Assembly: GCA_963170055.1 (NCBI GenBank)
Contig: CAUJGJ010000003.1
Location: forward strand, 488,844 to 552,843
Length of the DNA: 64,000 nucleotides
DNA from: Halisarca cf. caerulea
Taxonomy: Eukaryota; Porifera; Demospongiae; Chondrillida; Halisarcidae
Direction of reading: 5' to 3'
A program made the position numbers and the translations under genes. Positions 30,919 through 63,080 of this stretch are shown piece after piece (the stretch's first letter is position 1; each line of letters starts with the position of its first letter). The notes below the pieces were generated by a model. That model was not told the DNA's origin and did not search any database. It saw nothing but the letters and a program-made list of their open reading frames with translations.

Positions 30919-32507
30919 CCTTTTAACGCCTGCATTAAGACATCATCGCTTGCCCGTTAAGGCCGGATAGCCACAAAATCTGCTTGATATCAAACCAATA
31001 TCAATGTAATTATTTACAGAAAACATGGCAAGTAGGTTACAAAGTGAAGATGTTCTGCAACAGAATCAGATGAGCTGTGGTGTGAGTCTGATGATGACTG
31101 GCCTAATGCTCCAGAAGAAGGGGACCTTAATTGAGAGCTCCATTCAGAGAGCAGATCCATTAGACAAGGCTGGGGCAGGACTAGAGGATGACGAAGATGA
31201 AGAGAGTGAGCGTACTAGTACTAATGAAACCACAACTCTCCTCCACTCACAACCATCTACAACCATACCACTCAACCTCACAGCTGAGGACTCACATTTG
31301 CCATCCACACCTGTGTCCTTGCACACCAATAACGAGGTACCAGTATACTCTGTATTGCACAGGTATACATCTTCACCCTGATTCCCGGACCAAAGGTGGT
31401 CCTGGATGTAGATAGTCATCCATATGACTACTTTTGCCAGATCTGGGGAGTGACACCTTTCGGCTCATTGCAGCTCAAACCAATCTGTATGCCAACCAAA
31501 AAGGTACGCAATCGTGGGAGGATGTGAATGAAGATCATATGAAGGCCTTCATGGGAATCCACATGTGCATGGGTCTAGTTCGGTTGCCATCTCTCCAGGA
31601 CTACTGGAGCACTAATCCCATCATAGGCACACCTGGAATTGTCAGTGGAATGAGCCGTGACAGATTTCAATCCACCCTAAGTCACCTACACCTAAACGAC
31701 AATTCTAGGATGCCCCGGTCTGGCTCTGCCGAATTTGATAAGCTTTATAAAGGGAGGCCATTGCTTGACAGAATTTGAGAGAACAGCCGGGCTGTGTACC
31801 AACCTCACTAAGAGGTATCTGTGGATGAGGCCATGATACTGTTCAAGGGTAGGAGTGCCATGAGACAGTACATGCCCAAAAAGCCTGTCAAGTGGGGGTA
31901 CAAGTGCTGGTGAATGTGTGATGCCCGGAATGGGTACATGTACAACCTGGACATCTATACCAGGGAGCCAGTGGTACCCTTGACGAGGCAGACCTTGGAG
32001 CCACAGTTGTCCAACGTATGGTGGAGCCACTGTACGGGTGCAACTATCATGTGTACATGGACAACTTCTTTTCTAGCATTGTACTCGCCAACAAACTGAA
32101 GGAACGCAGGACTTTGATGATTGGGACAGTGAGGACCAACAGACGAGGGTGGCCACAAGAAATTAAGGGGGTAAAGAAATTAGAGAAGGAAATGTCACGT
32201 GGGGACAGCCGATCTAAGGTGGTTGATGAGGTGGAATGTGTGGTATGGAAAGACAAGAGGATACCATATTGGTATTTATATTCGCGACACTTTATTTTCG
32301 CGAAATCCTGTAGAATGTCTTAAAGCAAAATTTTCGCGGAGTCTAAATTTCGCGGGTTGCATACCCACGCGAAAATATAAATTAGTATGCATAATAATAA
32401 AAGACACTCCGGAGACAGACTACACGCCTATAGAGCGTCAGCAGACAAATTGCACGTGGAAGAACAGGTGTGAGCATAGATACTGTATCTATGGTGTGAG
32501 AAACGAC

Positions 32508-33497
32508 ATGACAGCCGACGCAGCGACTTTCCTGTGCAGTTCTTGTATCAGAGGTTATCACGTATACCAGAGTGTGTGGAGTTCGGAAGAGGGAGAGAAC
32601 CTTGTGTGCAAGCGGGAGATGAGTAATCCACGCGATAGTTATGCCGTCGTTTGTCTAAAAGAAGAACAGACTGTAGGTCACTTGCCACGGAAGATATCGC
32701 GTCTCTGTTCCCTCTTTCTCGGAAGAGGCGGTGGGATTACAGCGACCGTCACAGGAAAAAGGCAACGTTCGATCGATCTTCCCCAAGGAGGACTCGAAAT
32801 CCCTTGTCGCTTGACTTTCTCTGGTCCAGAAGAGTCGATCACCAAAGTGAGAAGTATAATGGCAAAGCTCAACCTTATGGAAGGTGATAGTATTTGCACA
32901 GAAAAGGAATTAGAAAATGAGGAAGTTAAGGAAAGTGCTCATTCTACGAGACTCAGTATGGTTTGGGTCTGCACAGGGAGACAGTCACTCACATTTGAAG
33001 ACAAACAAGCGATTTGTACTGGGAAGCGCCTTACAGACAACCACTTGAACTTCAGTCAATGTCTAATACAAGCACAGTTTCCTACCATTGGCGGGCTGAC
33101 CAACACCCTGATGGTAAATAAACCTTGTGCTCACCGGACCCTACAGAATGGAGGCTTACAGATCCTGTTTTGTAGGGATGACCACTGGATTGTAGCATCA
33201 ACTGTAGGTTGTCCTCTTAACACTGTTAGTGTTTATGATAGTGTTTACAAGGACATTGATGTTGCAACCAAGGGTACTCTTGTACATATGCTGGGTGTTT
33301 CTGAGGAAGATCTGCGCATTAACATGGGCCAGGTAATGCAGCAGGAGGGAGGAGATGACTGTGGTGTCTTTGCTGCAGCAGTGTTGACATCACTAGCTTA
33401 TGGTCAGAGTGAGCCGTTTCAGTTCGGACAAATGGACATGAGAGCACACTTCATTGAGTGCTTAGAGAAAGGCGTGCTCTCTCCGTTCCTTATGTAG
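32508..33497 (+). CDS. HIRAN domain plus Ulp1/SENP-like cysteine protease
   Basis: From the first in-frame ATG the product has 329 residues, but the frame is open further upstream (GVRNDMTADA lies at the start), so an upstream exon is possible. Residues about 17-105 match a HIRAN domain: VWSSEEGENLVCKREMSNPR, then AVVCLKEEQTVGHLPRKIS and GGLEIPCRLTF. HIRAN domains bind DNA ends and occur in HLTF/Rad5. Residues about 190-300 have the C48 protease pattern: H226 in DDHWIVAS, D244 in VYDSVYKD, Q278/Q279 and C285 in GGDDCGVFAAA. Such enzymes cleave SUMO or related modifiers. The gene lies inside the pogo-like element, tail to tail with the transposase. Its role in transposition is unknown. Confidence 0.8.
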   Translation: MTADAATFLCSSCIRGYHVYQSVWSSEEGENLVCKREMSNPRDSYAVVCLKEEQTVGHLPRKISRLCSLFLGRGGGITATVTGKRQRSIDLPQGGLEIPCRLTFSGPEESITKVRSIMAKLNLMEGDSICTEKELENEEVKESAHSTRLSMVWVCTGRQSLTFEDKQAICTGKRLTDNHLNFSQCLIQAQFPTIGGLTNTLMVNKPCAHRTLQNGGLQILFCRDDHWIVASTVGCPLNTVSVYDSVYKDIDVATKGTLVHMLGVSEEDLRINMGQVMQQEGGDDCGVFAAAVLTSLAYGQSEPFQFGQMDMRAHFIECLEKGVLSPFLM

Positions 33498-33608
33498 ACT
33501 GTACGTACATTTGATTCAGGATCCATAACACAAAAAATTCATTGCTTTAACAGTATAATCATGATCATTATTATAACAGTTATTGTAACAGACTAGTGTA
33601 GCAGTGTG

Positions 33609-35051
33609 TTAATATGCAATTCCTGCACCCTTGAAGCCGTTGATAATAATGTCAGGATGTGACTTAAAGTAGTCAAACATGGCCACGATCCACTGTGCAC
33701 ATAGCGATTTCATGGTGCTCAGTTGCATGTCCACAGGCTGGAGTTCATCTACTGATGCACCCTTCTCCAGTTGTTGGAGGATTTGAGTTGCATACCACTC
33801 TCGAAATTTTGACTTTAGGAAGTCTTTGGCTGCTTTATTCACGCTTACATCAAGGGGTTGCAAACAGTCAGTGCAGTTGGGCGGAACGAGAACAACATCA
33901 AAGTGATGTTGCCTTAACTCTGCCATTACGTCTTCAGTAATCTGTCCCCTGAATTCATCATATATAACTAAAGCATGGTGATCTTCTGGGAGTCCCAGCT
34001 CTTTCTTCTTATCTTCTACATAGGGGACAATAATCTTGTCAATGTATTCCAACATTGTCTCCTCATTAGACCAGTGGGTGGATGTGTGGGTAATGTGCCA
34101 GTCGGATGGAAATGGGTAGTCTGGATGGCTCCTTTTTGTTTTACCCTGATACACTAATTGAATGGGGAGAAAATCTCCACTCATTGTTGCAGCAAATAAT
34201 CCTGTAATTTGACGTTTGTCATTGAGTCCACCTATTTCAATCTTCTTTGTGCCCTTTTTCTCCATTGTCCACTTTGAAGCAGGGACATAGCTTAGTGCCG
34301 TATGGTCCCAGTTCAGAACCAACTGCGGTGGAATCTCCTCAGAATCCACGTTAATTTGGATTTGCTCAAGAAATGTTGTACGCAACTCATCCAAGTTCAT
34401 TGGTAGAATTCGAGTCTTGGTGCCACCTTTCCTCTTCACAAATCCCATCCGACGCAATAGGCTCTGAGCCCAACTCTTTGTAAGAGCAACAGGCCCACCG
34501 TACTCCTGGAGCGAAGTTCGCTTTGTCTTACTGACAATGCCAGTAGCAGTTGCAATAGCAATGGAGGTGGTCACAGGAGCACCGTTTGCTCGCAGGACCT
34601 TTATGTATGACTGCACATGGGAGTCAATAGTCTCACCTAACAGCAATGGGCGACCACGCTTCTTTGGGGGGAGACTTGTTATAGCTTCACTGTCCAGGTT
34701 GCCGCTTGGTGAGCGCTTTTTTCCGAGCTCTTGGTAATAATTCTTCTTGATTGAACGTACTGTACTCTTGTTCAGTGGCCTGTCCAATTCCTTCGAGAAT
34801 TTCCTTACAGCTGCAGCATTCCCATTCTCGCTCACGTATTTACCAATCTGCGCTCGCTGCTCATCAGTTAGTCGACCGTACGGTCCCTGAGTCCGCGTCT
34901 TGGTGCTGGGATCTTGACGTTTCGAATTCTCCACCGACAAGACTTCAAGGTTCGCTTGCCGAATAGCAGTTGGTGGAATATCAGCAGAAAGAGGACCATT
35001 GGGATCTGGAAGATGGCTTTTCACCGGTTTGAGGTAACGCAATAGTGCCAT
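33609..35051 (-). CDS. Pogo/Tigger-type DDE transposase, intact
   Basis: 480 residues, no interruption. The N-terminal third has helix-turn-helix-like segments (LTDEQRAQIGKYVSENGNAA, then FSKELDRPLNKSTVRSIKK) and a basic KKRGRPLLLG stretch of AT-hook type. The DDE_1 catalytic core follows: D249 in LNWDHTAL, D365 in VIYDEFRG and D401 in CTDCLQPLDVSVNK. The 35-residue gap from second to third Asp is usual for pogo/Tigger. It would cut and paste the element at TA targets in the nucleus. The start ATG lies 178 bp inside the right terminal repeat. Confidence 0.9.
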   Translation of the reverse strand: MALLRYLKPVKSHLPDPNGPLSADIPPTAIRQANLEVLSVENSKRQDPSTKTRTQGPYGRLTDEQRAQIGKYVSENGNAAAVRKFSKELDRPLNKSTVRSIKKNYYQELGKKRSPSGNLDSEAITSLPPKKRGRPLLLGETIDSHVQSYIKVLRANGAPVTTSIAIATATGIVSKTKRTSLQEYGGPVALTKSWAQSLLRRMGFVKRKGGTKTRILPMNLDELRTTFLEQIQINVDSEEIPPQLVLNWDHTALSYVPASKWTMEKKGTKKIEIGGLNDKRQITGLFAATMSGDFLPIQLVYQGKTKRSHPDYPFPSDWHITHTSTHWSNEETMLEYIDKIIVPYVEDKKKELGLPEDHHALVIYDEFRGQITEDVMAELRQHHFDVVLVPPNCTDCLQPLDVSVNKAAKDFLKSKFREWYATQILQQLEKGASVDELQPVDMQLSTMKSLCAQWIVAMFDYFKSHPDIIINGFKGAGIAY

Positions 35052-35439
35052 AATGGTAGTTTAAGAGCAACAGCAAGAACAAAATTAAACGACTAGAAAG
35101 GCCGAGAGAAAGCCCACCAATGATGGGGCACTATACGTGACAAAATTATTCGCGAGTACAATTTTTCGCAGAGGGGGAACGAGCCGCGAACATAGCGAAA
35201 ATTTATCTCACGCGAAAATAAATACCTCTATGGTAGTCACCCTTGTCAACAACATCACTGATCCAGAAGCAGTATCCACGGTCCTTAGAAGAAACAAGGA
35301 TGGCACACGGTCATCAGTGTCCTGTCCCGAGAGTGTCCAACGCTACAACTCATACATGGGAGGGTAGATACGTTTGACGCGAGGAGAAAAACATACTCCT
35401 GCACGCATGTGGGACATGTCCGCGCTAATTCGAAGGTGT

Positions 35440-43620: not shown

Positions 43621-46600
43621 CTGCAATAGATAAAGGTGGTTCTGTGGAAGTGGAGATTGTCAAAGTAGTGACTCTTGGACCACCAGAAGCTGGCAAGACT
43701 CAACTGAAGAAAGCGCTGACTAACAACTTTGATATATCCACACAAAGCACTCCAGTTTCCACTGAAGCAGATGTAGTTATGGAGTGCTTTGTAGAAGGAG
43801 AATCAGAGGCATTGTGGCAGAAACTTGATTCCAAAACCCTCCAAGCAGCACTGTGTACCACTATTGAGAAGAAAAACTATAGTGCTCATCAGATAGAGTT
43901 CCATGCAACACCAAAGCCCATCAATAAGAAAGAAATATGTCCCAAGGTGAAAGCCGGAGGAATAAGTGGAATGGTTTCTAAGTTACGAGGTATTATGGGT
44001 GCAAGGCAATCACAAGTAGAGGCAAATCATGGTGTTGATGAGGTGAAGGATGCTTCACAGAAGACTACTTCTCCTGAAGACTTAAAAGTGACTACTACAT
44101 TTTCTTCTTTGAAAAAAAATGTTCATAAGCGTTTCTCTCCAGAAGTTGCAGAACAGGATTTGAATAAGGTTCGGCTGATCCACATGGTTGACAGTGGTGG
44201 ACAGCCAGCCTTTCTTGATATTCACCCTCTAATTGCCACTAGCAGAGCCCTTTACCTGCTGGTGTACAACTCACAGGAAGGCCTCTCTGCTCTTCCAGCT
44301 TTAACATACAGGAAACCCACTCAGTTTCCCACTAAAGACCTGCCAAATCCATCCCAGACAAATCTACAGATGATTCAACGTTCTCTGTACACTCTACACC
44401 ACTGCAAGGAGAGGTTCCTAGAAAAGGAGAAGGAGCTAAAGAGTTGCTTTAGTGGCATCACTTTTACAGATAGTGAAATACTCCCTGTTGTTATTGTTGG
44501 ATCCCGAAAGAGTCAGAAATGTGATGAAGACCCATCAAGTATGGTGGCAACTCACTGTTGTGGGATTCCATCCTGGAAGCACACGCAAAAAAATGTTGTC
44601 CTCGTTGAGAGTCTCGATCCTTCTTGCAGTGGTGTTAAAAAGCTGCGTGGAGCCCTGTCCCAGGCTGAGTCCAAGGTGAAGCTGCAATTGCCCCTCTACT
44701 GGGTCCTTTGTCAGTTGATGTTCTGGTCAACTGATGACCCCTCCCTCTCTGTGCTGACGTACCACCATCTCCAAGAAATTTGTATGCAGGAGAAGCTTGT
44801 CTCTTCAGGTGAGGAGTTTCTTGCCTTACTTACAAGCTTTCACATGTTAGGAATCTTCAGCTGTCCAGACATCGATCATAATAAGCTTAGTCTAGCCGAG
44901 GTGAAGCATCTTCACCAGTCTCCAGTTTTCACCAAGCCAGATGTACTCTACCAGCAAGTATCAAAGGTTCTGGAGATTCCCTTCCATGACCTACATGCTC
45001 CTGATTGGAAGCTGTCAGAAATAGCCTCATTAGAAGATCTACAGCGAAGTGGTATCCTCACGCCTGACTCCCTCCATCTGTTGGGAGTCCCAGACACTCT
45101 GGGATCATTCACTGGATTCCACTCATATTTGCTACAATCTCTGATGAAGTGGGGATTGGCTGCACAAGTATCACAAGATCCACTTCAGCTTTTCATTCCA
45201 TCTGTCCTGCCTACACGTTCTGATGTTCACTGCGCTCTAAGTGAGAGCCCTATTCCACAGCTGGCTTTGACCATTGTTGCTCAAGAGTCAGAGGATTATT
45301 ACCATCTTCCTCAAGGCCTCTTCCCCCACTTCATAGTTAGCCTCATGAAACACCATAGTGGTGGCTATGAAGTGAGGAAGGGCAAAGGAAAGGCTGAACC
45401 TCGCTGTCGAGATGTTATCACACTTACCAAAGATGCCTGTCATGGAACAAACTTTCCCTACACCATTTGTACTGTGGACAACATTGACCACATCTCTGTC
45501 CACATCATTCCAGGGCAGAAAGATGAGAAGGGACAACCAAAATGGGTCCCACGGGATTGTGCCTTTATTATCAGGGACATGAAGCAGTCCATGGAAGAGG
45601 CTTATTCGAGGTTGTACCAGAAGTCAACTCAACCCCGAGTGATCCTCTGCTGTTTGTGCACTTGTGATTATGCTATGGACAAGAAGCATCTTGCTCGAGT
45701 GGATTCTAAGTGCTTCACAATTCACTGCTTGTCATTGGAGTGTGAAGGAGTCTATGTACAGGATTGCCAGGATAATTTGAAGGCTATTCTGAAAGAAACC
45801 AAACGTAAGTGTGTCCCTAAAGTTGCTATATATATATACATCACTGTACATGTACTTGTACATGGGGTATATAGTGTTAGTAGTGCACCAACTCATCATC
45901 ACAGCATGAATGACATATATGCGTTTTTCCTTGCTGGCTTAAAGTGAGAACATCACTTTTCTTATGACATATATAGCAGCTTCATGCCATGCCTTAAGAT
46001 TACTAATATCATTATGAAAGATTGGCTTAATGCAAAAAATATTGCTGTATAGCGGTAGTGGATAACCTCTGGTCAACCTTCAGGTCCTGTTAACATGTAT
46101 ATAGACTATACGGAACTTTTCTAATGTACACTTTTCCTCTTCTCTTTCACACCCATTGACCTGGACATACTCTTGTACAATTTGTGAATGCTGTAGAATA
46201 GTCTCTCATAATAATGGTACAACTTTGTATAATATTAATACATGGAAGTTGTTGGACATGGTGTTGTTAATGATATAAGTTGTTGGACTATTATTGACCA
46301 CGTTTATGGTGTTATCACACTGTACAACGTTTCACCCATCACGGGCTTCATCAGGTACAAAAATGATCTACACTAAAAAAAACATTAGTTATTGGCTAAA
46401 GCTAATAGCCAATCCATTGGCCATTGGTCACAAGAAGTGGCCAATAGATTTGGAGGTGACAGTTCACTTTACATCCCTAAAGATCCGCAGAAGAATAAAG
46501 ACAAGGGGGTTGTATATAGGATACCATGTGGGGGTTGTAGTGAAGTTTACATCGCAGAAACAGGAAGACCTTTGAAGACTAGGATTACAGAGCACAAATG

Positions 46601-50832: not shown

Positions 50833-51912
50833 TTAGGCAAGGTGTGCTATGAGTATAGTCAGAGTTTTCGTCTCCTTGCTTAGTTTTTTGTATGCATGTG
50901 TTTTCTTTGCATTGCGTTTTTCTAATTCCACCATTTCAAGTTGTATTTTAGTACGGCAGGAAAGCACTTTGCCTCTAAAGAAGCAGGTTAAATATTTATA
51001 TGTGTTTGACTGTCTATCACCAGAATGTTTAATCTTATCTAGCTCACTTAGCTCTGGGTAATACCCCAAAGTCCTTCGTAATGCACATGCAAGCTTAGAT
51101 TTCAACTCCTGCTCGTCATTCAAAGTGAGTGAGCTTACGACTCCTTGGTTTAGGTCACTATTGTCTTCTTGTTGGTCACAGTTTACAGCCTGATCTTCCT
51201 CAGAGTCTGTTTCTATTTCAGTATTTACAGTGGCAACTAGATCTGCTTCAAATTGATTCTCAATGGAAATATCACTGCTAGAGTCACTTTCCTTGTGTTC
51301 GTGACTAGTGTAGTGGGTAGATGTTGCTACACAAGAAGGCAATAATGTTACAGTATTAGGTCCTGTGTCACCATGCATCTCAAGAGTAGATTTATGACTG
51401 GAACTACAATCAGTGGTATCACTGATATGTATGTCCATTTCTGGGGCACTAACACATGTTTCCATTTCTGGAGTGGATGTTAGTGAACACGTAGGGAATG
51501 AGGTGTCCGTGTCACACGGCATCTCTAAGTTGGGGGTGAAATTACGGCGAGAACTAATTTCAGTGTGTTCATTAGTACACATTGCTTTTATAGGGGTAGA
51601 TGTTACTACACTAGTTGGCAATGGGGTACTACTACTCACAGACTTAGAAGACATGTACGGCTCACAGTTTACTGTTATTGCCTCCGGCAACATGGAAATT
51701 TGTTCTGGAGTGCAATCCATTGTACCATCCTGGCTTGTGTCTAATCCTTGACTATCCAAGGGTGTGGTAGAAATTTCAGGTTGATTGCTTTCTTCCAACA
51801 CTGTAAGGTTGAGGAGTGTACCATGCACATCATAAGATCGTACAGCATTCAAATGTATTCTAATTTTATCAAGTATTATCTTGTTCCAACTTTGTGATGC
51901 TCGAAATGACAC
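50833..51912 (-). pseudogene. Downstream part of the decayed gene: Ser/Thr/Glu-rich region and basic C-terminus
   Basis: In the same frame as 51931-53032, separated by one TGA at 51931-51933. It is low-complexity, with many Ser/Thr/Glu runs and degenerate TSTP-type repeats. It ends with a helical basic segment (LRRTLGYYPELSELDKIKHS ... LEKRNAKKTHAYKKL). If the TGA is a mutated CGA it belongs to the upstream protein; otherwise it is dead sequence. Confidence 0.45.
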
Positions 51913-51930
51913 ATCTTTTAGTGTGTGGTT

Positions 51931-53032
51931 TCATACATGAAGTAAATGAGGACCTTCAGCATGACTGTCTGGGTCTTCATCACTGTCACAATAGTGTACA
52001 GCATGGTCAGTATCTCTGTACCACCAAATGCCTTCCCCCTGTATCAAAAAATGAGCAATTCTTTCCAAATGGCTTTGAAATGCAGTTATGTGGTCATGTA
52101 TAAAGGTTTTGTTAAAGACACTTCCTGTGTAGCTGGGAAGTGTTTCTGCAGCCTTGTTAATTCTGGAATTGTTGCTGTGTGTGAGGTTGTAGCTGTTTGT
52201 GAGAGAGTCAGGTGTCATTTGCTTACACTGCAACCTTATAAGTAAGGCTTCAATGAACCCATCTACTTTATGGTCAGTGTTCTTAGCAGAATTTGAAGCT
52301 TGTTTGAAGGTGCGCTCCTCTGCTTCAGTATTAACCGACCTACTACAAACCAGTTCATGCTGTACTGGTCCATGTATTAGCATGGAATGAAAGTAGATTG
52401 AGCATTTTTGAGGTTTAACCATGTCTAAGTATAGTATGTGATGCAAAAATGCACAGTTGTAAAACTGTAAGCACTGCTTGGGGCATCGTCTACTGTCATT
52501 GGAATACACTATTTCTGAAATCTTCACTATGGTACTTATTAGCAAGAATAGATTGTCCTGTCTGTCTACTCTGCATTTCACCAGAATATGCATTACCTGT
52601 ATTATGGCTTCCCTGAGATCAGATCCATAAATCTTGGGCTTTGCCCAAAAAGCTTTCAAGTACAGGCTCACCTGCCTGTTTACCTCTGGGTTGTGGATTA
52701 CATTTGGGAGCTGCTCTAGCAGATGTTTCACATGACCTTTGAGATCATGAAGGGGCTCAAATGACAACACTGTATATGTAATGAGATTCATATCTAGGAG
52801 GTCAGTGACTGGATTCAACAACAGCAAGGCTGGAACCCTTTGTACACCACATAAGTGGCTTTTCAGCTCATCCACCATGCCTTTCTTAGTTGAAGAGAAA
52901 TCAAATATACCTCTGCTTACTAATTCCCTTTTTAACTGTTCACTGCTTAGTGTGTCATAAAAATTCACCTTGTTTGGGACTTTGCCAAATATTCCTGCTG
53001 TTGCAGTATGTTGAATGTCTCTGTAACTCCTA
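51931..53032 (-). pseudogene. Decayed gene of the GVQRVPALL family, middle part
   Basis: Reads from the right side of element E: DIQHTATAGIFGKVPNKVNF, then LKRELVSRGIFDF, KSHLCGVQRVPALLLLNP, LSFEPLHDLKGHVKHLLEQL, SIYFHSMLIHGPVQHELVCS and NTEAEERTFKQA. I recognise this as part of a recurring uncharacterised family in marine invertebrates. The conserved acidic positions (DHS upstream, LHDLKGH, NTEAEER) could form an RNase H-like DDE site, an inference. It continues 53795-55268 across the E insertion. Confidence 0.55.
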
Positions 53033-53794
53033 CACAGGGTGTTTATAACCGTCTGTTGCTTGTTCCGATTGTGGGCGGTGCTTGTTTTCTACGTCATCAA
53101 TTAGCGGCTGTTTTTAATGCGTCATTTGGCGTCTATCGGATGACGTACGAAATTTCACGTATCAACAGAATGGGGGAAGAAGGCGACTTCTGTGACGTTT
53201 TGCCTATACGTATCCGTGAAACGTCACGAAAATGGCAGTTTTGTTGAGGGCGAAGATGAAGTCGCTTGGTTAGACCTCAGATGCATTCGAATCTCACCAA
53301 ATCCAACTTCGATGGAATCTTAAGATGTTTCGGTTTGCGAAAATCGTTCCGGGCATAGTGCTACAATCAAGCAGTTTTTCGCAATTGGACCATTTATGCT
53401 AAATTTTGGCCGTTTGAAGGGTGAAAAAACAGGTTTTTCGGTTATAACTTTCTTACGGAAGATTATAACCTATAGCCCGGAACGATTTTCAGATAGCTTA
53501 TCACTTGTTCTGTCTTTTCGTGTTGTTTAATGGGAATTGAGAGGGATCTGAGGTCTAACCAAGGCGAAGTTTGTCTAAAACTGCTATGTATTCCTAGCTG
53601 GCTATCTTCCTTCAGACAATAGAAACAATCGCTAGTTAAGTACCAACATGCGCGGAATATATACAACTTTCGTCCAATAAGAAGAACTGGGTGAAAATCT
53701 GGTCAACGAAGTAGAAACAATCGATAATTTGTGAAGCTATTTCAAGACTGCCCTTTTTTGCATTTTATTCCTGGACGGTTATAAATACCCTGTG
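53033..53794. mobile_element. Element E, copy 2
   Basis: 762 bp. The left end is CACAGGGTGTTTATAACCGT and the right end GACGGTTATAAATACCCTGT then G, flanked by TA on both sides. It is inverted relative to copy 1. Nested pairs: GGTTAGACCTCAGATGC with GATCTGAGGTCTAACC, and AAATCGTTCCGGGCATAG with TAGCCCGGAACGATTTTC. The apex holds TTCGGTTATAACTTTC. It splits the GVQRVPALL-family gene. Confidence 0.85.
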
Positions 53795-55268
53795 TAAGCT
53801 TGCTATGATGTGCCTTTGTAAAGTCAAGGCAATCATTTGTGTGGCAGTTGCATGCAATGCAACAATAATGGCCACCCCTTTGAATACCTGCCTTAAACCA
53901 GGCAGACTGTTTGTCTCCTTTAAAAAACTGAAGTGTGTCATGGATTTCAATTCCATCTTTGGTTGTAATGGTTTCAGATAAACTATCTAGACAAGCTACT
54001 CTTTCTGGGGTTAATCCAGCTTGATCAGCTGATGATGATGAGCAATGAGCCATTATATATATTTCCCCCTGTTCAACCAACTCCTGTACGGATGCCTTTG
54101 TTTTAGGGGATTCAGCTAGCTCAGGGTCTGTGTAGAAGACCAAGGGGTCGTAAATTACCCCTGAAATTATTAGTAATAAACCATAGCTTTCAACGACAGA
54201 GTGGTCAGACCAAATCCATAGGGCTCTAGTTCGTTCATAGTCTTTAAGTTGTTTTTGCATTTCTGCTAGATCAAGACTTTCAAAATTGTGTAGGGCACAT
54301 GGAGCGACCTTTGACACTATATCTAGGATGTCTTCTCTGCTCATTCTAGCTATTTCACAATCAATGTGTAATCTCATTGGTTCTCTCTGCTTGCTAAGTA
54401 GCTTTTGTCGTAATTCAAGAAGGGAGAACTTACGACCAATTGCAGTCTTTTCGTGCCTTTCACCATTATGATAGTATATGACTGGTAATGGGCAGCAAGG
54501 TGTACCTAGATCAATCTCTTTGCTTTCAATTAGCTCTTTTTCTTGTTTTTTGAGCTTCTTGTAGCTAGGTGTTGCTGGCATACTCACTTTTGAGTTTTGA
54601 AACCTTTTCAAGGTACTTTTGGGCTTATCAGTAATCTTCAATCCCGCAATATCTACTTTCAGGTCTAATGCTAGCAATTTGATTTTGTGAGCTGCATCTG
54701 AGCGCTTGATTTCAAATTCTTTTGTGATTTCAGTGGCTACAAACTTCTTCCCTGCAGGCCAATTGCGGAGTTTATGGCATATTGCATCAAACTGTTCGTT
54801 AGTTTGGCAGTCATTTGCACTCAGTGCAGTTCTAGTTTGCTTTCTTCGGGATACTGTTTGTGGTGCGTCAAAATACGTGGTAAGTCTCTGACGTGTGTGC
54901 TTAGAAAAGCTTAGGTCTTGGGAATGTACCCGCACTATAGCATTATTTGCCAGTGCTTCATTGCATTCTTTTGTACATTGCTTCATTACCTCTTGTCTAT
55001 TTTCCCTTAGAACCTGTTTTATGGGACCTACATGCTTCACTGCTACTTCTGCAAAGGTCTTTCCAGTTGAAGCAATGCAGAAGGAGTTAAATTTCTCAAA
55101 CTGCACCTTGGCAAATTGTTTCTCAGACACTGTTTTTGCTGGCCCATACCTATTTTCAACGTCTTCAAGTATGAACAGTGGTTTTAAAGGTATAGCTGAT
55201 TGCAATTCTGGATGTTTTATGGCACAAGCAGTGCACTTGGAAATTGTGTGATTTTTTGTTAGTTTCAT
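53795..55268 (-). pseudogene. Decayed gene of the GVQRVPALL family, N-terminal part
   Basis: A long open frame with HTISKCTACAIKHPEL near the start, a Lys/Glu-rich stretch, ARMSREDILDIVSKVAPC, LWIWSDHSVVESYGLLLII and AGIQRGGHYCCIACNCHTND, a zinc-binding-like CxxC. The last 15 or so residues are supplied by the inserted E element. The SDHS block and the GxQxGGxxxCxxC block recall the layout of CMC-type transposases, but the assignment is tentative. Confidence 0.55.
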
Positions 55269-61307: not shown

Positions 61308-63080
61308 ATGGGCAATAACGAATCAAAGCAGGAGGAATCAAAGCCCGACACTCGTGAATCCAGAGCGATTGGAGGAACAATTGGTGGAGGTATTGGAGTT
61401 ACTACTACGGGAGTTGGGATCGGTTTGATGTTCTTAGGCCCGGTCGGCATGATCGCTGGCGGGGTGCTCCTGGGGACTGGACTGTCAATGTCAGCGAACA
61501 CAGTGCAGCAATGCGTTCAAGACAAGGAGTTCAGCTACGGTCAAATGGGCATCAGCGCTGGTGTAGGAGCCGTGGGTGGAGTAGTAGCAGCTCCATTCTC
61601 TGTTGCTGGTGGAGCGGCAGCCACAGTGATTACTAGCACAGCAGGGAAGGTCGCCACAGTGGTGGGTGCTGAGGTGGTGGGAGGTGCAGTATCAGGTGCA
61701 GTTACGCAGACGATACAGAAGAAGGCAGAGGGAAAAGAAGTGACATTGACGGACGTCGGTAAAGGGGCTCTACTTGGTGGGGTAGTTGGTGGGATTGGCG
61801 GGGCAGCAGGGTAAGTGGCCACGTCTGTCACTAAAGGGGCACGGACTATTGGCGACATAGCCAGTAAGACAGTAATCGCTACAAAAATCACAGTTGGCGC
61901 TGCAAGCGGCGCTGTAGGTGGCGGTGGTGGAGCCGTTCTTGCAACGTTGATACAGAACGCTATTGAAAAGGGCGATATGAAGTACTCAAACTTCAAAGCG
62001 GTGATGATGGAGTGTGGCATGACAGAAGCCATGGTGGAAAAGTTGTGGGAATTACTTCTCAACAATGGAGTGATTGTCGACGAAGTGGTACAAAAGGAAC
62101 TTCCCAAATCCTTTAAACTACCAGAGGAAATGGCCGTCTTTCGCGAGTTGGTGGAAAAGCTACTCGAAGATTCTCTGAATATTACAAAAGGTTTAGCTAG
62201 TGCTGCTGTGCAGGGTGTTGTTACAGGAGGTATAACCGGAGCAGCCACTGTTGCTGGTCAGCTCAAACAACAGCGGAGGATTGCCAAAGTACAGGTGAGG
62301 GACAGGGCTCAGCAGGTAAAGCGAGGTGCATGGGGTGGCTCCATGGAGGCTGAAGCATATGGTAGCAAACACAATAAGTGTGTTGTCATTCACCACGAGG
62401 ATGGGAGCACTACGGTGCATGGACGCAAGAAAGCTGCCGATGAAGTTCACTTACATTACAGCACTACAGAACAACACTACACCCCTGCCAATGCTGACGG
62501 AAAGAGAATATCTAAGGATTTACCTGCATCAAAGCAGGGTGACTGCTTTTTCAAAGCCATTGCCTATTCTACTGGTGACGATCCTCGTGCACTTCGTGAG
62601 ACGATTTCAGGTACCATGCAGGACAAACCACTAAAGCTGAAGGGTACAAATTTAACAGAGTTAGAAAGTGGCGGTGTTTACCAAGGGGGAGGGGAAAAAA
62701 TGACAAGTGCACCCAAACCGTCTGAGATAAAAAGTTCCATAAGGAAGGCAATAAAAAGTGTACCAGATAGTGAACTTGATCCGAAAGTCAAACACAAGCT
62801 ATGCCAAGATGCCGACATTGCAGTAAAAGATCTGCTGAAGTTAGGTCGGAACAAGCATGCCATGAACCGAATGGAAGCGCTTGGAGAGAGACGGGGGGGA
62901 CTTAACATACATTGTCTGCGGGGTGACAGAAAGGGCCAGATTGCAGTAGACATCAATGTCTCTGATCCTAACGCTACTAATAGAGGCCCTTACAGACTCA
63001 TCTTCAAGAAATTTAAGAATACTAAAAATGATTTCTTTGGGTTTACATTCCATGAATTTCTTCCTGAACACAACTACTGA
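61308..63080 (+). CDS. Myristoylation-type, glycine-rich membrane protein with OTU-like domain
   Basis: ATG at 61308 in an ACCATGG context gives MGNNESKQEE, an N-myristoylation signal. Residues about 25-165 are Gly/Ala/Val-rich with GxxxG-type spacing and hydrophobic blocks, suggesting membrane insertion. TAA interrupts at 61812-61814 within GGGTAAGTGG, a good splice donor; a 54-nt intron (61811-61864) would keep the frame. Later come a second Gly/Ala-rich block, a helical region (MEVKL-type EKLWELLL), and a C-terminal 200 residues with KQGDCFFKAIAYSTG (Cys codon 62544) and GFTFHEFLP (His codon 63051). The Cys/His pair fits an OTU- or papain-like fold, but the match is by motif only. Confidence 0.55.

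Follow-up and report, generated by a model that had tools for sequence, protein, structure and literature searches.

A pogo-type transposon of the sponge Halisarca cf. caerulea with a convergent gene for a predicted HIRAN and Ulp1-like protease fusion

Transposons of the pogo superfamily (Tigger, Passer, pogoR and others) are described with one or two open reading frames "encoding transposases", and the portions of that description consulted mention no HIRAN or protease gene (PMC7386202). Ulp1-type proteases are found on DNA transposons of other kinds. According to the excerpts consulted, Ginger1 elements carry an Ulp1 or OTU domain fused to the C-terminus of a Gypsy-integrase-like transposase, without a HIRAN domain, and a role in transposition or repair has been proposed; Ulp1-type proteases also occur on Mutator-like elements (PMC2836005). 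In the host repair protein HLTF, the HIRAN domain (HLTF/Rad5 HIRAN) has a translocase and a RING domain as its fusion partners and binds 3' DNA ends, as given in the parts of two reports consulted (PMC4666394, PMC11237066). Here we describe a transposon in a 64,000-nucleotide stretch of the sponge Halisarca cf. caerulea (the window; C3:488844-552843 of the 194.5-Mb, 454-contig genome searched) in which a pogo-type transposase gene faces a second gene for a predicted HIRAN and protease fusion. It is nearly certain, in our judgment, that the element is of the pogo type and that its two genes form a conserved pair.

The complete transposon is 2970 bp long (32264-35233), as delimited with a finder of TA target sites and terminal inverted repeats (TIRs). 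Its TIRs are 24 bp in length and are identical at 20 of 24 positions (CCATATTGGTATTTATATTCGCGA versus CCATAGAGGTATTTATTTTCGCGT). When the flanks are joined at 32263/35236, a single open piggyBac frame results, and of the 11 matches that this joined sequence has besides the two halves in the window, 8 run through the joint with at most one net gap base each. Because the piggyBac frame is open on joining and relatives of the target lack the insert, the element must have jumped into a piggyBac gene. Its host site is a piggyBac remnant, within which the element is nested.

The original prediction, made from the letters of the window alone, had recognized a 2.96-kb unit with inverted repeats. The unit stands, but the proposed ends (32269..35228) are each 5 bases short and were rejected on the evidence of the finder and of the joined flanks. 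Both the 18-bp repeat and the flanking TA that had been taken for the ends lie inside the 24-bp TIR, and that TA is part of the repeat. The element is complete and probably autonomous, and its features are as follows.

31434..32263, plus strand: left part of the interrupted piggyBac gene, outside the element (PF13843, E=3.4e-27 in 31434-31775; joined frame)
32262..32263: left TA target site duplication (TA and TIR finder)
32264..35233: complete pogo-type transposon, 2970 bp (TA and TIR finder; piggyBac frame restored on joining flanks; insert-free target relatives)
32264..32287, plus strand: left TIR, CCATATTGGTATTTATATTCGCGA (TA and TIR finder; 20/24 alike with the right one)
32281..32373: left end with five TTCGCG/CGCGAA motifs, putative transposase binding sites (motif positions)
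32508..33497, plus strand: second gene, HIRAN and clan-CE (Ulp1/SENP-like) protease, 329 amino acids, single open frame (open reading frame, Pfam, alignment, predicted structure)
32523..32867, plus strand: HIRAN domain, amino acids 6-120, N40/D43 matching HLTF N91/D94 (model m78476d337be4; HLTF HIRAN matches)
32961..33470, plus strand: Ulp1/SENP-like protease domain, amino acids 152-321, with H226, D244, Q279 and C285 (alignment; predicted structure)
33498..33608: 111-bp gap separating the two convergent stop codons (open reading frame coordinates)
33609..35051, minus strand: pogo-type DDD transposase, 480 amino acids, D249/D365/D401, 35 residues between the last two (open reading frame, Pfam, alignment)
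35149..35216: right end with three TTCGCG/CGCGAA motifs, of presumed role (motif positions)
35210..35233, minus strand: right TIR, CCATAGAGGTATTTATTTTCGCGT on that strand (TA and TIR finder)
35234..35235: right TA target site duplication (TA and TIR finder)
35236..35367, plus strand: right part of the interrupted piggyBac gene, outside the element, to the stop codon (joined frame)

The transposase exceeds the Pfam cut-off for DDE_1 (E=1.4e-12). This domain is present in all 44 proteins of a transposase alignment (A2; 43 proteins chosen by hand from 120 listed, plus that of the window), and D249, D365 and D401, in DD35D spacing, are invariant in the same 44. The intact DDE_1 transposase with this triad that had been predicted is thereby confirmed. 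Membership in the pogo superfamily was judged by a DDE_1 domain, a DDD triad with DD29-59D spacing, a TA duplication, a TIR that in most families is no longer than 40 bp, and an N-terminal DNA-binding motif (HTH_Tnp_Tc5, CENP-B_N, psq or others). The window element has the DDE_1 domain, the DDD spacing and the TA duplication with a 24-bp TIR. Its HTH_Tnp_Tc5 match is weak (16.6 bits, under the cut-off of 22.2), and this motif is detected at E≤1e-3 in 2 of the 44 aligned proteins. As far as the published account was consulted, pogo elements agree with ours in the DDE_1 domain, the DDD triad, the DD35D spacing, the TA duplication, a TIR below 40 bp and a size inside 1.2-5.2 kb (PMC7386202).

Membership in Ginger1 or Mutator was rejected, since the transposase is of the DDE_1 type with a TA duplication. 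Mutator-like elements have a transposase of a different superfamily. Among them, Kaonashi and Phantom carry Ulp1, and we know of no HIRAN domain in Mutator-like elements with Ulp1.

The product of the second gene is, on its alignment and modelled structure, predicted to combine, in one fusion, a HIRAN domain and a clan-CE cysteine protease with the SENP/Ulp1 fold. The predicted structure of the window protein supports both the HIRAN beta-barrel and the Ulp1/SENP fold. A search with hidden Markov models, suggested in the original prediction, succeeded for HIRAN and in part for the protease. The HIRAN match of the window protein is slightly below the Pfam cut-off (24.1 versus 24.7 bits), and at the window locus it rises above the cut-off, to 26.4 bits, in a genome search with the HIRAN family; the Peptidase_C48 match of the window protein alone stays below it (15.9 versus 20.7 bits). 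Among 80 aligned second proteins (A1; 79 chosen by hand from 120 listed, plus that of the window), HIRAN is found at E≤1e-3 in 68 and Peptidase_C48 in 41.

The active-site residues H226, D244 and Q279 are invariant in 115 of 115 proteins and C285 is present in 112 (114 of the 120 listed proteins, 280-400 amino acids long, plus that of the window), in the order His-Asp-Gln-Cys. HIRAN and an Ulp1-type protease with these four residues at these positions had been predicted, and both were found. SENP/Ulp1 and NEDP1 proteases share the fold and the His-Asp-Gln-Cys site. Unlike them, the window protease is joined to HIRAN inside a transposon; it is only ∼17% identical to them, and assignment of its substrate is putative. 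Specificity for NEDD8 or ubiquitin would suit the predicted fold equally well as SUMO. In the parts of the HLTF reports consulted, the HLTF domain shares with ours the HIRAN fold and two residues, N and D, of the NN-P-Y-D motif (PMC4666394, PMC11237066). However, HLTF Y93 has no conserved counterpart in the second proteins, and the fusion partner here is a protease.

A search of the genome for other copies with both genes had been proposed, and such copies are abundant. At the protein level, there are at least 91 matches to the transposase (89 of 383 candidates scored) and at least 139 to the second protein at E≤0.01 (122 of 542 scored). For the pairing count, all 139 second-protein matches were merged into loci together with 90 of the 91 transposase matches (the omitted one is contained in another locus of the list). 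The second gene lies within 5 kb of 51 of 82 transposase loci, and the two genes are arranged tail-to-tail in 51 of 51; these 51 correspond to 50 second-gene loci, as one element split by an insertion is counted twice, and some gaps are long (up to 4988 bp). When the transposase positions were shifted 40 times, the number of paired loci averaged 2.55 and never exceeded 6, compared with 51 observed; on contigs of unknown length, shifted places may overrun the end, which makes these control counts slightly low. The remaining 31 transposase loci are mixed: at least three (C4:1791532, C37:621079 and C369:2627267) belong to a second pogo-like clade, described below, with a convergent HIRAN gene, and others are unscored.

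Most full-length matches to the second protein adjoin a transposase. At 29 loci with both matches, the scores for TA and inverted repeats are 32-38 in 13 cases and at most 23 in the others, many of which miss one or both ends. The repeats of the relatives have the common form CCRTA...GGGAAATTTTCGCG.

By DNA similarity there are three near copies: that in the window, a 96% copy on C369 (query 547-2028) and a 97-98% copy on C412 that is interrupted by two insertions. In the C412 copy (C412:5751171-5763882; L010, L011), the second insertion leaves a 6-bp query overlap (1529-1534) that is perhaps its target duplication. Many further DNA matches (68-88%) cover the ends only, query ∼1-200 and 2572-2960, which adjoin each other and so resemble non-autonomous copies with internal deletions. 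Short deleted copies of this sort (L006 1501-2093, L007 1259-1857, L008 ∼1501-2098 and others) retain ∼200 bp at the left and ∼390 bp at the right; part of what they retain still encodes at most the first 79 transposase residues, at 46-50% identity.

Outside this genome, the two named sources among 120 listed relatives of the second protein are Halichondria panicea and Amphimedon queenslandica. Four listed relatives of the second protein are apparently co-located with listed relatives of the transposase, since the lengths of their longest contigs coincide exactly (218183, 20335, 1644153 and 3750 bp), which points to the same gene pair in other assemblies. No confirmed relative of the second protein was found in viral contigs and none in phage records, and none of the transposase in prokaryotic genome contigs, in scans that depend on matching peptide patterns and so leave absence unproven. 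A viral or prokaryotic origin is unsupported by these scans.

Both genes are under purifying selection, which had been proposed as a check on the pair. For seven close pairs of the second gene, the differences number 39.5 over 1279.8 synonymous sites and 64.5 over 4483.2 non-synonymous sites, which gives a ratio of non-synonymous to synonymous differences per site (pN/pS) of 0.47 (Fisher one-sided p=1.2e-4). The pN/pS for six close pairs of the transposase is likewise 0.47 (p=0.002). The pooled pairs were picked by us, one per subfamily, from the all-pairs set; in the untrimmed all-pairs run, single values for the second gene range from 0.14 to 1.24. Such counts blend selection before insertion with free drift afterward and so understate the constraint, and the Fisher test assumes independent sites. 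The second gene is conserved beside the transposase in many relatives and both genes are under purifying selection; therefore, the second gene is not a chance capture. This explanation is ruled out by the strict orientation, the conservation of residues, the selection and the shift control.

According to the original prediction, copies that lack the second gene, or a HIRAN-Ulp1 gene occurring as a single-copy host gene, would speak for chance capture. No single-copy host gene of this kind was seen among the scored matches (122 of 542 candidates, not all inspected), which form a large multicopy family instead. Copies that have related ends but no second gene do exist. Besides the many deleted copies, there are three complete elements of two kinds that carry the transposase only (L058 and L059, two copies of one kind, and L061), and a further locus, L060, has no second gene within 1.5 kb; none of 112 second-gene queries matches any of these four loci. 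In a tree of 31 transposases, the four form one clade (98/95) among two-gene elements (next node 92/88). Because they make up a single sub-clade inside the two-gene clade, loss fits better than chance capture. Secondary loss is the simplest reading of these loci, although the tree has a weak backbone and starred branches that are compatible with a single gain.

The histories of the two genes mostly agree. A Mantel test on full-length gene pairs gives r=0.718 (n=13, 0/9999 permutations). The agreement weakens as close pairs are removed, to r=0.553 (n=11, 9/9999) and then 0.333 (n=10, 282/9999), and it is not significant with fragment-based distances (r=0.036). The trees also conflict: the second gene of the window groups with that of C280 (95/95), whereas the C280 transposase groups with that of C369:520197 (99/100). 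Judged from these sequence comparisons, the pattern suggests a long association of the two genes with some exchange between subfamilies.

The predicted combination of HIRAN and Ulp1 is present as described, but the prediction missed that HIRAN alone holds the corresponding position in a second, distant pogo-like clade. Its representative L066 (C152) has a transposase open frame of 596 amino acids, ∼29% identical to that of the window, ends of the form TACTTCCTCTRAAAATTCGGGA, and a convergent HIRAN-only gene of 136 amino acids beside the transposase. We located 58 second-clade loci in this genome, with HIRAN within 3 kb in 48 (46 convergent, 2 on the same strand) and none in 10; these counts use 68 of 79 transposase matches (11 from the first clade, that of the window element, were dropped) and 97 of 150 HIRAN matches (known HIRAN-Ulp1 places were dropped). 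In a HIRAN tree whose bootstraps are rough, the second-clade domains stand apart from those of the first clade (96/95). HIRAN-only relatives of similar size in other genomes number 30 proteins.

HIRAN is also found by itself within the first clade. At C369:7179448 and C452:469382, both among the 13 loci with high-scoring ends, HIRAN is kept and Ulp1 is matched by none of 112 query proteins. For the pair formed by these HIRAN-only elements, pN/pS within HIRAN is 0.27. HIRAN looks like the core of the second gene and the protease like an optional fusion; since HIRAN alone occupies the same place in the second clade, DNA-end binding, and not the protease, would be the common part.

Other HIRAN-only frames were encountered in the genome. 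Five near-identical frames of 146 amino acids (C369:3097594, C226:4991977, C301:970669, C452:1195103 and C301:10875) were found only with the Pfam model and perhaps belong to another carrier. Further frames of 102 amino acids are at C241:1916141, C247:1153873, C16:171817, C105:503987 and C325:561, one of which (L072) adjoins a masked stretch.

The explanation that we favor is that the accessory protein works at the DNA ends made by transposition, although we consider this mechanism slightly more apt to fail than to hold. At the excised element or the donor gap, the HIRAN domain would hold a free 3' end in the way that the HLTF domain holds such ends, and the protease attached to it would remove SUMO, or a different ubiquitin-like protein, from transposase, repair or silencing proteins at these ends. 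As an outcome, the post-cleavage complex might last, or the gap might be repaired in favor of the element. End binding would be primary and the protease an addition, because HIRAN occurs alone in the second clade and persists in elements that lack Ulp1. In the part of the report consulted, the isolated HLTF domain, which binds 3' ends, stops HLTF from stripping Cas9 from cut ends (PMC11237066), and by analogy a transposase on its own cut ends may be the same kind of object as Cas9 on its ends. In the Ginger paper, as excerpted, the task proposed for the Ulp1 and OTU domains is to activate repair once transposition has occurred (PMC2836005). The identity of the element, the conserved pair and this mechanism, taken as a whole, make an explanation that we regard as evenly balanced between right and wrong. 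It is possible, if doubtful, that a two-gene pogo-type system was founded with HIRAN as its accessory factor, which would guard or mark cut 3' ends against host end-processing (HLTF-like stripping, resection), and that one clade then fused to it a deSUMOylase that erases ubiquitin-like signals precisely at the breaks made by the element.

A narrower proposal, which we consider unlikely, is that HIRAN on the 3' ends essentially keeps host HLTF-like or resection enzymes from stripping the transposase, with the protease secondary or tuning. It would account for the HIRAN-only versions in the second clade and in two first-clade elements, and it agrees with the dominant-negative effect of isolated HLTF HIRAN on Cas9 removal and end resection in the part of the report consulted (PMC11237066). 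However, in the fusions the protease residues are kept as strictly as the HIRAN residues, so the protease matters there. Moreover, a host HLTF was not identified in this genome, and HLTF Y93 is without a conserved counterpart.

Transposons are subject to SUMO-dependent silencing. The protein might remove SUMO from chromatin or small-RNA silencing factors so that the transposon stays expressed, with HIRAN serving just for recruitment to DNA. The predicted fold, like that of clan-CE deSUMOylases, would suit this role, and proteases of the Ulp1 or OTU type are found repeatedly in other transposons (Ginger1 and Mutator in the excerpts consulted; PMC2836005). This reading leaves the HIRAN-only versions and the constancy of the DNA-end domain unexplained, and we think it distinctly unlikely. 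Less probable still is a trans-acting regulator that sets the SUMO state of the transposase itself and hence its activity or copy number: two convergent genes in one element and a suitable protease fold are consistent with it, but it gives HIRAN no role. A passenger gene, acquired in a single capture event and carried along with no part in transposition, is highly improbable, for although one sub-clade (four loci) manages without it and some subfamilies seem to have swapped it (window/C280 versus C280/C369:520197), the selection tests disfavor such a passenger, with catalytic residues invariant across 115 proteins (the cysteine in 112), a pN/pS as low as that of the transposase, a strict orientation and a counterpart in the second clade.

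Other frames noted during the analysis include a distinct one of 533 amino acids (L073, C2:2971000-2972600) with tandem repeats, an Ulp1-like domain ∼36% identical to that of the window and a Cys-rich stretch that is PHD-finger-like by eye. It is possibly another carrier of Ulp1, and near copies of it lie on C182, C3 and C346. Elsewhere in the window, a frame of 767 amino acids at 43644-45947 (plus strand) has a weak match to Roc (Ras of complex; 22.7 bits, cut-off 27) and is likely a host gene. Frames of 359, 345, 508 and 421 amino acids at 50833-55268 (minus strand) and 61815-63080 (plus strand) have no Pfam match at E≤0.01.

Pogo-type transposons and Ulp1 proteases in transposons were already known. 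As far as searched, HIRAN in a transposon and its pairing with pogo are apparently new: no report of a HIRAN domain in a transposon or of a HIRAN-Ulp1/pogo pair was found in the literature covered, as judged in part from titles and the openings of abstracts, a scope that excludes Repbase and subscription papers. Ulp1 and OTU proteases recur in unrelated DNA transposons, to judge from the excerpts consulted (PMC2836005). In the fusion described here, the protease has a partner domain whose ligand is known, the free 3' DNA end. Related transposases form a natural series with HIRAN and protease, with HIRAN alone and with no second gene. The role of ubiquitin-like proteases in transposons is therefore directly testable by comparing these elements. 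Our findings suggest that these transposons come equipped to handle the broken DNA ends that they make. If this is true, it would be the first case, as far as searched, of a transposon with its own DNA-end reader related to HLTF.

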